Shown here piece by piece: positions 15,898 through 54,937 of a stretch of DNA of 64,000 nucleotides (within the stretch, counting starts at the first letter, position 1; each line of letters starts with the position of its first letter). This stretch comes from Halorubrum trapanicum (GTDB lineage: Archaea; Halobacteriota; Halobacteria; Halobacteriales; Haloferacaceae). The stretch spans positions 372,001-436,000 of the forward strand of contig NZ_AP017569.1 of assembly GCF_002355655.1 (NCBI RefSeq). Reading direction: 5' to 3'. The position numbers and the translations under genes are program-made. Below the pieces are notes generated by a model that ran no database searches, was not told the origin of the DNA, and worked only from the letters and a program-made list of their open reading frames with translations.

Positions 15898-16107
15898 TTA
15901 TAAAAGAGTGTCAGCGGATCGGTAGTGTCTATTTTCGAAACTTCAGTCACTCACTTATAAATAGTCGATTACGGATCGGTGGCGAACACCTCCAAAGACC
16001 CAGTTGCTTGTATATAAATAACTGACCGTAGATCGGTGGCAAACACCTCCAAATCCCCAGCTACTCGCTTATAAATAACTGACCGTGGACCGGCGGCGAA
16101 CACCTCC
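15898..16107 (+). promoter_or_regulatory. array of four TATA-bearing units with exact 57-bp spacing (element copy A)
   Basis: TTATAAAAG, TTATAAATA, ATATAAATA and TTATAAATA start at 15898, 15955, 16012 and 16069, exactly 57 bases apart. In units 2-4 the box is followed by a GATCGG-like stretch, an ACACCTCCAAA motif and CCCAG. Units 2-4 are closely similar; unit 1 is diverged. They look like repeated archaeal promoters pointing into the structured element that follows. The region 15811-15897 holds nothing else I recognise. Confidence 0.7.
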
Positions 16108-16387
16108 AAAGCCCCAGCCGCGAGGACTCGCGCGGCTCGGTGCGCGCTTCAGTCGCTCGCGTTGCTCGCTCCTTCCAGTGCTTGCGTCGCCTACGGCGCC
16201 CCCGCGGCTGCCCCTTTGAGTCCCGCCCCGCACCGCAACCGCACCTCACACCTCCCCAGCCTCGTCGCTCGCTTCGCTCGCGACTCCCTCGCGCGTGCGA
16301 CTCGCGCCCTGCGGGCGCTCGTCGGCACGCTGGGAGGCGCGACGCGCCTCTTACAGCCGGCGGCAGAGCCGCCGGCGACGCCACCGC
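16108..16387 (+). repeat. structured non-coding element, copy A
   Basis: Full-length copy of a dispersed element found four times in this window. Hairpin 1 has outer arms CAGCCGCG (16115-16122) and CGCGGCTG (16203-16210), with the inner stem decayed relative to other copies. A conserved single-stranded spacer with CCCCTTTGAGTCCC and CCTCCCCAGCCTC follows. Hairpin 2 is GTCGC/GCGAC (16264-16284), then TCCCTCGCGCG. Hairpin 3 is GCCGGCGGC/GCCGCCGGC (16356-16376). The end is GCCACCGC. Open frames through it are arginine/serine-rich and not conserved as protein. Confidence 0.8.
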
Positions 16388-16427
16388 AGTTGTCGATTGT
16401 CGAGTGAGCGGCGCGGCCGCCCGTTCC

Positions 16428-34326: not shown

Positions 34327-34428
34327 CGAGTGATCGTTCGACCGGCGGGAGGGAATAGATTGTGGCGAGACGGTTCGTTGGACGGGTGACCGGGCGTGGG
34401 GTTTCGAGAGAAGTTTAAATAACGATCC

Positions 34429-34667
34429 GCGGTGGCGCGTGCCTCCGAGTGGCCGCCGAAGGCGGCCGCGAGGAGCGCGCGCGAGGGAGTCGGCCGACCG
34501 CAGGGAGGCCGACGAGGCTGGGGAGGGGAGAGGTGCTGTGCGGGGCGGGGTGGGACTCGAAGGGGCAGTCGCGAGGGCGGCGCAGGCGACGTAAGCACTG
34601 GAGGGAGTGAGCGAAGCGAACGACCGAAGCGCGCAGCGAGCGTGCGCCGCCCTCGCGACTGGGGCTT
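34429..34667 (-). repeat. structured non-coding element, copy B
   Basis: Minus-strand copy of the dispersed element. Hairpin 1 arms CAGTCGCGAGGGCGGCGCA (34566-34584) and its exact 19-base complement (34643-34661). Hairpin 2 is GTCGGCC/GGCCGAC (34489-34513). Hairpin 3 is GGCCGCC-gaa-GGCGGCC (34451-34467). The spacer between hairpins 1 and 2 and the end motif GCCACCGC are conserved. The stem sequences differ from those of the other copies but keep pairing. Confidence 0.85.
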
Positions 34668-34790
34668 CGGCGGTGGTCACCGCAGATCTGTATTCGAATA
34701 TTTATAAGCGAGCGACTGGGGCTTCGGCGGTGGTCACCGCAGATCTACTGTCAGTCGTTTATAAGCGATCGACTGGATCCTCGACGGTAT
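34668..34790 (-). promoter_or_regulatory. 57-bp phased TATA units of element copy B
   Basis: TATA-like TTATAAA boxes (minus strand; plus positions 34701 and 34758) are 57 bases apart. Each is followed, in element orientation, by AGATCTGCGGTGACCACCGC and GAAGCCCCAG; GCGGTG-ac-CACCGC is itself a perfect small hairpin. A more diverged third unit reaches about 34790, next to the msrA stop. They point into copy B. Confidence 0.7.
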
Positions 34791-34803
34791 TCTGTCTCGA
34801 TCC

Positions 34804-35343
34804 CTACGCCTTCACTTTCTCGCGGAAGCGCTCGCGGACCTTCTCGACCTTCGGCTGCGCGTGCATCGTACAGTAGGCGTCGGCCGGGTTCTTCTCGAAG
34901 TAGTCCTGGTGTTTCTCCTCGGCGCGGTAGAACGTCCCCAGCCGCTCGACTTCGGTGACCACGTCGTCGTCGTAGCCGCCCTCCTCGTCGAGCGCCTCGA
35001 CGTACCGCTCGACGACGTCGCGCTGCTCGTCGTCGTGGTAGAGCACGATCGACCGGTACTGACCGCCGACGTCCGGGCCCTGCCGGTTCAGCTGGGTCGG
35101 GTCGTGGACGGTGAAGAAAATCTCCAGGATGTCCTCGTAGGAGAGCGCGTCGGGGTCGTACTCGACCTGAACGACCTCGGCGTGGCCCGTGTTGCCGGAA
35201 CACACCTCGCGGTAGGTGGGGTCGTCGGCGTGGCCGCCGGCGTAGCCGGAGGTGACGCTTTCGACGCCGTCGAGTTCCTTGAACGCCGCCTCGACGCACC
35301 AGAAGCAGCCGCCGCCGACCGTCGCGGTCTCGGTGTTCGTCAT
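34804..35343 (-). CDS. msrA: peptide methionine-S-sulfoxide reductase
   Basis: Repairs oxidised methionine (S-sulfoxide) in proteins using thioredoxin-type reductant; 179 residues. The active site is GGGCFWCVEAAF with catalytic Cys13. Other family segments: GVESVTSGYAGGHADDPTYREVCSGNTGHAEVVQVEYDP, HDPTQLNRQGPDVGGQYRS and AEEKHQDYF. A resolving cysteine is present in DAYCTMHAQPK. A TTAATAC box lies about 30 bases upstream of the ATG. It is flanked on both sides by copies of the structured element. Confidence 0.96.
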   Translation of the reverse strand: MTNTETATVGGGCFWCVEAAFKELDGVESVTSGYAGGHADDPTYREVCSGNTGHAEVVQVEYDPDALSYEDILEIFFTVHDPTQLNRQGPDVGGQYRSIVLYHDDEQRDVVERYVEALDEEGGYDDDVVTEVERLGTFYRAEEKHQDYFEKNPADAYCTMHAQPKVEKVRERFREKVKA

Positions 35344-35411
35344 AGCGAGCTATTGGCGTCGCAGACGTATTAATCACGCGTGGCGCGAGACGTGGACGTA
35401 GAGATGTTCGG

Positions 35412-35520
35412 TTATTTACAAGTGGTCGATGCCGGATCGACGACGGACACCTCCAAAGCCCCAGACGCTCGGCGAGATGACAGTGATTCTTATAAATAAC
35501 TGATCGACACGAACACCACC
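35412..35520 (+). promoter_or_regulatory. TATA units upstream of element copy C
   Basis: A weak TTATTTACA at 35412 and a good TTATAAATA at 35490, spaced 78 rather than 57 bases, are each followed by a unit of the type GATCG...ACACC...GCCCCAG. This copy departs from the strict phasing of the other three. The 35344-35411 segment holds the msrA promoter and nothing else recognised. Confidence 0.6.
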
Positions 35521-35783
35521 GAAGCCCCAGCCGTGAGGTGCGCGCACACTCGCTGTGCTCCTCACTCGGTCGCTCACTCCGTTCGCTCCCTCGTTGCGGT
35601 GCTTGCGTCGTCTGCGCGCACCTCACGGCTGCCCCTTCGAGTCCCACCCCGCACCGCACAGCAACCGCACCTCACGCCTCCCCAACCTCGTCGCTGGCAA
35701 CCTCCGCTTCGCTCCGGGTGCCAGCGACTCCCTCGCGCGATGCTGCTCGGCCGCGAGGCGGCCTCGCAGGCGCGCGCCACCGC
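35521..35783 (+). repeat. structured non-coding element, copy C
   Basis: Plus-strand copy. Hairpin 1 arms CAGCCGTGAGGTGCGCGCA (35528-35546) and exact complement (35613-35631), 19 of 19 pairs. Hairpin 2 is GTCGCTGGCA/TGCCAGCGAC (35690-35728). Hairpin 3 is GGCCGC-gag-GCGGCC (35749-35763). The spacer (CCCCTTCGAGTCCC, CGCCTCCCCAACCTC) and the end GCCACCGC are conserved. Another TTTATAAG follows at about 35789. The rest of the gap to 35896 shows nothing else. Confidence 0.85.
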
Positions 35784-35896
35784 GGATTTATTTATAAGCG
35801 ATCGTCCGCCCGTCCGGGACCCGTCCCCGAACGCGTTCGCCCGGCAACCCTGCGGTCGAACGGTAGACCTTTGCCGTCTCCCCCGCCAGTTCGCGT

Positions 35897-42699: not shown

Positions 42700-43592
42700 T
42701 GGGCGCTTCCGCGGGACCGCTCGGCCCCCTCGCGATCGCGGGGACGCTGGAGCCGTACCTCGGGCCGGCGACCGGTATCGTCGTCGACGCCGCGATCTTC
42801 CTCGCCGTCGTCGTCGCGACGTACGTCCTCTACAAGGCGGTCGTCGCCCCGCTCGCGCAGCGGGTGTTCGACAGGCAGGGGCTCGACGAACACGCGCGGC
42901 GGCCGCTCCAGAAGATCGTGGCGTTCCTCGTGTTGTTCGCGGGCGTCACGGTCGCGTTCGGCGCGGCGGGCTACCAGGGGTTCCTGCGCTCGCTGGCGAC
43001 GATCGCGGCCGCGGCGACGCTCGCGATCGGCTTCGCCTTACAGGACGTGATCAAGAACTTCGTCGCGGGCGTGTTCATTTATACGGACAAGCCGTTCCGC
43101 ATCGGCGACTGGATCGAGTGGAACGGGAACTCGGGGGTCGTCGAGGACATCTCTTTCCGGGTCACCCGCGTCCGCACGTTCGACAACGAGCTGCTCACGG
43201 TGCCGAACCACGCCCTGACGAGCGACGTGGTGAAGAACCCGGTCGCGAAGAAGACGCTCCGGCTGAAGTTCGTCTTCGGGATCGACTACGAGGACGACGT
43301 CGAGAAGGCGACGGACATCATCGTCGAGGAGGCCGAGAGGAGCGACGCCATCCTCGAAGACCCCGCGCCGTCGGTCCGGCTGACCGAGCTGGCCGACTCC
43401 TACGTCGGCCTCCAGTCGCGGATCTGGATCGACGACCCGTCGCGGGCCGACTTCGTGAAGGCGCGCGCCGACTACGTGAAGGCCGTCAAGCGGCGGTTCG
43501 ACGAGGAGGGCATCTCGATCCCGTTCCCGCAGCGGACCGTCTCGGGGCGCAACGAGTGGACGGACCCCGCGTCGTTCGGCGGGGGCGACTGA
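42699..43592 (+). CDS. MscS-family mechanosensitive channel
   Basis: Small-conductance tension-gated channel, 297 residues. Three membrane segments (IVVDAAIFLAVVVATYVLY; KIVAFLVLFAGVTVAFGAAG; and the pore helix FLRSLATIAAAATLAIGFALQDVIKNFVAGVFI). The beta domain begins FRIGDWIEWNGNSGVVEDISFRVTRVRTFDNELLTVPNHAL, typical of MscS. It would release osmolytes on dilution stress, which fits the K+ uptake genes that follow. Its 3' end (SFGGGD) is tandemly repeated downstream. Confidence 0.93.
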   Translation: MGASAGPLGPLAIAGTLEPYLGPATGIVVDAAIFLAVVVATYVLYKAVVAPLAQRVFDRQGLDEHARRPLQKIVAFLVLFAGVTVAFGAAGYQGFLRSLATIAAAATLAIGFALQDVIKNFVAGVFIYTDKPFRIGDWIEWNGNSGVVEDISFRVTRVRTFDNELLTVPNHALTSDVVKNPVAKKTLRLKFVFGIDYEDDVEKATDIIVEEAERSDAILEDPAPSVRLTELADSYVGLQSRIWIDDPSRADFVKARADYVKAVKRRFDEEGISIPFPQRTVSGRNEWTDPASFGGGD

Positions 43593-43690
43593 ACGGACCG
43601 TCACGTCGTTCGGCGGGGGCGACTGAACGGACCGTCACGTCGTTCGGCGGGGGCGACTGAACGGACCGTCACGTCGTTCAGCGGGGTCGA
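43571..43690 (+). repeat. 34-bp tandem repeat, 3.5 units, of the mscS 3' end
   Basis: Units of 34 bp start at 43571, 43605, 43639 and (partial, two changes) 43673. Each holds GTCGTTCGGCGGGGGCGACTG, i.e. the last codons of mscS and its TGA. The first unit is within the gene, the others are untranslated. Since 34 is not a multiple of three, readthrough would be in another frame. Confidence 0.9.
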
Positions 43691-43759
43691 CTGACGGATC
43701 GGCCGCGCCCGGCGGGGTCGATAGTAACGAACTTGAGGGTCCGGTAACTGGGTGTGCCC

Positions 43760-54480: not shown

Positions 54481-54577
54481 TTTATAAGCGACCGGCGGGA
54501 GGCATTCCGAGGACGCCGACAGATTCCCAGCCACTTGATTATAAATCGATGACTACAGACCGGCGGCGAACTCCTCC
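54481..54577 (+). promoter_or_regulatory. 57-bp phased TATA units of element copy D
   Basis: Boxes TTATAAGCG (54482) and TTATAAATC (54539) are exactly 57 bases apart. The second is followed by CAGACCGGCGGCGAAC and CTCCTCCAAAGCCCCAG, as in copy A. A TTTAAATAT lies still further upstream at about 54451, overlapping the end of the DUF63 gene. Confidence 0.7.
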
Positions 54578-54869
54578 AAAGCCCCAGCCGGGAGGCGGGC
54601 GCACGCTCGCTGTGCTCCTCAGTCGCTCGCGCTGCTCGCTCCTTGCGGTGCTTGCTTCGCCTGCGCCCGCCTCCCGGCTGCCCCTTTGAGTCCCGCCCCG
54701 CACAGCACCGCACAGCGCCTCACGCCTCCCCAGCCTCGTCGCGGCCGCTTTTGAGCGGCCGCGACTCCCTCGCGCGGGCGACTCGCGCCCTGTCGGGCGC
54801 TCGTCGGCACGCAGGGAGGCGCGACGCGCCTCTTGCAGCCGGCGGCTCTGCCGCCGGCGACGCCACCGC
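54578..54869 (+). repeat. structured non-coding element, copy D
   Basis: The best-preserved full-length copy. Hairpin 1 arms CAGCCGGGAGGCGGGCGCA (54585-54603) and exact complement (54662-54680), 19 of 19 pairs. Hairpin 2 is GTCGCGGCCGCT-tttg-AGCGGCCGCGAC (54738-54765). A GGCGCG/CGCGCC stem and hairpin 3 GCCGGCGGC-tct-GCCGCCGGC (54838-54858) follow. The end GCCACCGC is followed by another TTTATAAG at about 54876. The segment 54880-54971 contains the coaBC promoter. Confidence 0.85.
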
Positions 54870-54937
54870 CGATCATTTATAAGCTATTTCTGGGGGTCGC
54901 GGTGGTTTGGTCATCCGACCCCATTCCGCAACGGCAT

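Follow-up and report, generated by a model that had tools for sequence, protein, structure and literature searches.

The window, a 64,000-nucleotide stretch of the 3.08 Mb genome of Halorubrum trapanicum, carries copies A to D of an interspersed structured element. The core of the element is a rod hairpin of ~116 nt, consisting of helices P0/P1 and short helices split by tandem G·A mismatches. Beyond the rod lies a conserved linker, G-rich on the folded strand, followed by two more hairpins, P2 and P3. TATA boxes are found on the rod side, often as a tandem array. The far edge, past GCCACCGC, usually has another TATA box that is different from the array boxes, and sometimes TATTTAAATA farther out. 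The features in the window are:

15898-16111, plus strand: copy A array of four 57-bp TATA modules (boxes at 15898, 15955, 16012 and 16069), ending in the hairpin foot CCAAAG
16106-16221, minus strand: copy A rod hairpin P0/P1; the minus strand folds
16222-16388, minus strand: copy A from the conserved linker (CCTCCCCAGCCTCG at 16251) through hairpins P2 and P3 to ACCGC, with additional palindromic inserts
34430-34554, plus strand: copy B linker, P2 and P3, with TTTAAATA at about 34413-34420 just beyond the edge
34555-34670, plus strand: copy B rod hairpin; the plus strand folds
34671-34792, minus strand: copy B array with TATA boxes at 34701 and 34758; the array direction is minus
35404-35524, plus strand: copy C degenerate upstream module and one TATA box at 35490 (TATAA at -34, not -42)
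35519-35642, minus strand: copy C rod hairpin; the minus strand folds
35643-35797, minus strand: copy C linker, P2, P3 and far-edge TATA box TTTATAA at 35791
54481-54581, plus strand: copy D array of two TATA modules (boxes at 54481/54482 and 54539)
54576-54691, minus strand: copy D rod hairpin; the minus strand folds
54692-54882, minus strand: copy D linker, P2, P3, palindromic inserts and far-edge TATA box at 54876

Ninety-nine full copies were collected from the genome and the stretches around them were analysed. The set takes in nearly all copies that lie on one strand; the other-strand copies were mostly found by similarity to copy A and are biased. The far edge was located in 90 copies. 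In 43 of them the far-edge TATA box lies 6-8 bp past the core, its commonest position, and in 18 none was present within 75 bp.

Several smaller features accompany the element. Short near-perfect palindromes, GCCGGCGGCAGAGCCGCCGGC and GAGAGCTTCGCTCTC, occur in hairpin loops and edges of many copies (in the window at 16330-16390 and 54800-54870) and look like a second, smaller repeat family. A nested GC-rich module, starting with CCGGAAGACGGTCCTGCTCGCT and ending at about GCTCGCGGGACCGCA, lies inside the linker at loci L039, L040, L043, L173, L213, L217 and L225. An unrelated 34-bp tandem repeat of 3.8 copies with a 96% match is located at 43570-43698 of the window.

TATA modules at one edge of the element

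The first-pass annotation had reported TATA boxes at 57-bp intervals in copies A, B and D, and these are indeed present. Copy A has TATAAA at 15899, 15956, 16013 and 16070, copy B has TTTATAA at 34701 and 34758, and copy D has TTTATAA at 54481 and TTATAAA at 54539, the common TATAA pentamers being 57 apart. The period of 57 was independently called by Tandem Repeats Finder at 15973-16118 and 34655-34776. Every box is followed by the same unit in the window, a GATCGG-type sequence, ACACC, CCAAAG and CCCCAG.

The pattern extends through the genome. TATAA density upstream of the 99 copies is ~15 times that of the remoter flank (0.0054 vs 0.00037 per base), and successive TATAA intervals are exactly 57 in 86 of 136 cases; other Halorubrum species gave 26 of 40. 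This regularity is far beyond chance. When units and spacings were counted across copies, 57 was dominant but not universal: intervals of 54 (n=7), 33/34 (n=12) and a few others occur among the 99 copies, and a second subtype has spacings of 63, 69 and 74. The final TATAA lies 42 bases ahead of the core in 69/99 copies and at -34 in 10/99, the latter being the second subtype, which includes copy C with its single clear box and no 57-bp partner. The number of in-register modules per copy ranges from 0 to 7, with none in 21/99 copies and one in 27/99.

Each 57-bp module contains a TATA box and also repeats one strand of the hairpin foot (CCAAAGCCCCAGCC). The box is more conserved than the remaining unit (0.87 vs 0.75), and although the modules of one array agree at only ~68% of sites, their boxes stay in register. 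Such conservation favours a function, for which the simplest candidate is TBP binding and transcription of the element itself. The unit number differs by exactly one whole unit between orthologous loci. This, together with the other spacings, indicates that the 57-bp period is the length of a duplicated module.

Promoters of the neighbouring genes were considered and rejected as an explanation of the boxes. Box presence is independent of neighbouring gene orientation, so the boxes serve the element or nothing. Array size and the far-edge TATA likewise depend little on gene orientation. The flanking bases are of no use as a guide to promoter direction: native promoters have too little asymmetry and no strong BRE, and since TTATAAAT is nearly palindromic, the orientation of the TATA boxes is unreadable from sequence.

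Fold and strand of the element

The foot CCAAAG pairs with CTTTGAG past the rod, and the 14 copies with a CCGAAG-type foot all have CTTCGA-type partners. The foot pair covaries (A-T in 85, G-C in 14) with zero mismatches at that pair. Thus the module is physically part of the hairpin. In the rod, 43 diverse sequences had 95.9% of cells paired, compared with 76.8% when shuffled and 30-44% when slid, the slid control favouring the fold to some extent because the structure was derived by RNAalifold from the same alignment. Double-sided changes were found in 215 cells vs 57 in a shuffle control that does not keep relatedness, and 23 of 30 pairs were compensated. E-values of model R1 are rough, and one row of its alignment (L074) has an inverted rod. 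At L074:1276-1389 and L096:6734-6823 the inner rod is inverted within an otherwise normal P1 helix, as if flipped via recombination between the two arms.

The two strands are not equivalent. In this genome the strand complementary to the array direction forms the more stable fold in 92/99 rods and 90/91 remaining domains, and the same preference was seen in 52/54 copies of other Halorubrum species and 16/16 loci of other genera. When each strand is counted on its own consensus fold, the complement strand has 61 G·U and 13 A·C, and the array-direction strand 31 and 31. Tandem G·A mismatches lie between the short rod helices; read on the other strand they would be U·C. At the level of sequence it is shown that selection keeps the fold of one specific strand, the one complementary to the array direction, which places the arrays 3' of the folded strand. 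In single-stranded DNA, too, tandem G·A and G·T are stable, and the comparison of strands therefore does not tell RNA and ssDNA apart.

Distribution, placement and evolution of the copies

Matches to copy A lie at dozens of sites in the genome. There are at least 150 rod matches, and all 150 listed are on the main chromosome (P=4e-6 if uniform). The linker 14-mer CCTCCCCAGCCTCG was counted 159 times here, and all 53 Halorubrum genomes have it, with 7-176 occurrences each; the reversed control occurs at most twice. Under strict filters the rod was found in 40/53 Halobacteriales genomes and in 0/242 other genomes of the phylum. Copy numbers are 131 in Hrr. distributum, 43 in Hrr. coriense, 36 in Hrr. 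saccharovorum, 8 in Hrr. aidingense and 1 in Hrr. vacuolatum, and outside Halorubrum 63 in Halobium salinum, 55 in Haloparvum sedimenti and 26 in Haloarchaeobius iranensis. The rod search gave none in Haloferax larsenii, Haloferax elongans, Natrinema pallidum and Haloplanus ruber. Rod matches are almost absent from plasmid records, and no match was found when copy D was compared with phage records and the core motif with viral contigs.

In the other genera the rod lacks TATA arrays and, as a rule, any obvious promoter; no 57-bp array was seen at the loci read. Rods there are often in head-to-head inverted pairs ~30 bp apart (L247, L248, L250, L257, L262, L264). At L230, L231, L235 and L241, rods from different genomes of one family occupy what looks like a single intergenic site, which suggests that positions are conserved over the long term.

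With gene calls made by a GC3 heuristic, the neighbouring genes were convergent in 31 cases, divergent in 12 and co-directional in 31 and 21. Since every orientation occurs, a leader or 3' UTR of a fixed gene was rejected. A replichore-oriented signal was also rejected, there being 76 plus and 74 minus among the matches listed, without domains. The arrays face the intervening short stretch in 8/8 neighbouring pairs <1.5 kb apart and 12/15 <2.5 kb apart. In the cases read, the stretch between the closest pairs is mostly one ordinary gene, for instance msrA, hisA or cysS. The inverted bracket recurs genome-wide and resembles a composite element or else a transcription unit that is fenced in; in the window it is formed around msrA at 34430-35797.

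Elements flank both sides of msrA in the same orientation in most species. Orthologous copies there have identities of 0.80-0.92 and are no closer than paralogues in this genome (mean 0.86-0.87), even where the adjacent msrA is 95% identical. Pairwise orthologue alignments showed that hairpins had been swapped and that exactly one 57-bp module had been lost between otherwise conserved flanks. At nadM some species carry the element and close relatives lack it; comparison of filled and short sites at this one locus showed no clear target duplication. As read from these alignments, evolution at conserved sites is mosaic and concerted, positions often being kept and sequences replaced or homogenised.

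Interpretation and comparison with known systems

The favoured reading, to which an even chance is given, is that an old haloarchaeal family of interspersed mosaic elements, REP/BIME-like in character, has the arrays as edge modules specific to Halorubrum, and that the boxes transcribe the element, which has a border role. The TATA boxes of both edges would recruit TBP/TFB, and transcription of the element itself would begin from them. The far-edge box, a candidate promoter for the folded strand, would give rise to the folded RNA, and the arrays to opposite-strand RNA with 5' ends stepped by 57 nt. Hairpin and convergent transcription together would let the element delimit transcription units, for the most part at the 3' ends of genes, as its placement suggests. 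The border idea draws on the excess of convergent over divergent sites and on the closest pairs, whose arrays face the stretch between them. One point stands against the far-edge promoter: the usual -30 TATA distance of leaderless genes puts the start inside the 5' strand of P3.

The serious rival, held to be somewhat unlikely, is a selfish REP/MITE-like element acting via strand-specific ssDNA hairpins, its TATA modules being passengers from slippage or recombination with no transcription role. The copy number is patchy, falling from 131 to 1 in five Halorubrum species and to 0 in some haloarchaeal genera, a pattern equally compatible with a selfish repeat and with a functional border. Mosaic hairpin swaps, head-to-head inverted pairs in other genera and presence or absence at the nadM locus are also what such an element would leave. 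Against it, the TATA boxes are conserved above the rest of the unit and stay in register in modules that differ at about 30% of sites. A Y1 (RAYT) transposase as partner was not supported: Y1 counts, in which RAYTs are pooled with other Y1 proteins, are unrelated to copy number, and one genome with 63 element copies has no Y1. The near absence of plasmid matches, the lack of any in phages and viral contigs, and the absence of replichore-type orientation domains also argue against it.

Under another explanation, each 57-bp box starts a transcript into the element, which is a functional folded RNA. The first-pass annotation had proposed repeated promoter units of this kind, always pointing into the structure. 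A repeated TATA unit with near-fixed spacing at one edge stands, genome-wide and genus-wide, and the boxes do point at the core, the last at a fixed -42 in most copies; 58-bp intergenic repeats of Halorubrum virus HF2 are proven promoters (PMC8707807), by analogy only. But the folding strand is the opposite one. The array-direction strand folds worse in 92/99 copies and has U·C and A·C where the other has G·A and G·U, and folding and covariation alike favour the other strand as the structured RNA. Thus structured RNA made from these promoters is quite improbable; the arrays as such may act as a multi-start promoter.

Histone-sized phasing or a TBP/TFB sink, both suggested earlier, is highly implausible: 57 is near 60 bp and strong TATA boxes are many for a 70% GC genome, but nothing else was found in favour of a sink, the spacings of 54, 63, 69 and 74 and the whole-unit changes fit a duplicated module rather than phasing, nearly half of the copies have no or one in-register module, and arrays were not seen in other genera.

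The favoured reading could be carried further, to a haloarchaea-specific RNA system in which at least 150 chromosomal tandem-G·A rods are transcribed both ways from their own edge promoters and fence single transcription units, the promoter dosage being set by the number of 57-bp modules. This extension is unlikely. A conserved structured element occupies at least 150 intergenic gaps on one chromosome and is spread over the order Halobacteriales. It was not detected in the two Haloferax genomes searched and may easily have escaped work on the usual model species. It bears on how Halorubrum intergenic regions, antisense transcription and recombination are read, and the tandem TATA modules in varying number are a natural series for archaeal promoter-dosage tests.

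The element has a covarying secondary structure on one strand, a trait of independent ncRNA gene families, and had no match in Rfam at gathering or relaxed thresholds. It is apparently undescribed; no published description was found in the open-access literature, and an earlier one in subscription papers is possible. The class I intergenic repeats of halovirus HF2 are 58 bp long, contain a TATA box and were shown to be promoters in Haloferax (PMC8707807). They resemble the arrays in near-equal length, TATA box and the Halorubrum connection of the virus. Unlike the tandem arrays, the viral repeats are dispersed, are promoters of viral genes and have no structured core described; no likeness by sequence was found, as no phage record matches copy D. 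In Haloquadratum walsbyi, the PATEs, MITEs and SMRs form families of mobile elements, whose definition rests on their ends and on strain-specific insertions (PMC3119063). Like them, the element is a transposase-free, many-copy haloarchaeal repeat. It differs from them in that neither terminal inverted repeats nor target duplications could be made out, and in often keeping its positions from one species to the next.

The closest known kind are the REP/BIME-type interspersed elements of bacteria, mosaic intergenic hairpin repeats with up to hundreds of copies and inverted pairs (PMC2817692, PMC3733652, PMC3116915). The element shares with them the high-copy intergenic hairpin, the mosaic composition and the inverted pairs. 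It differs in having a rod of ~116 nt instead of a 20-40 nt palindrome, a foot GGGTGGGACT... on the folded strand instead of a GTAG/CGTC tag, a copy number that does not follow a Y1 transposase, and TATA arrays attached to it. Like the bacterial repeats, it prefers gene 3' ends to divergent promoters. It is a haloarchaeal counterpart to the REP/BIME elements.
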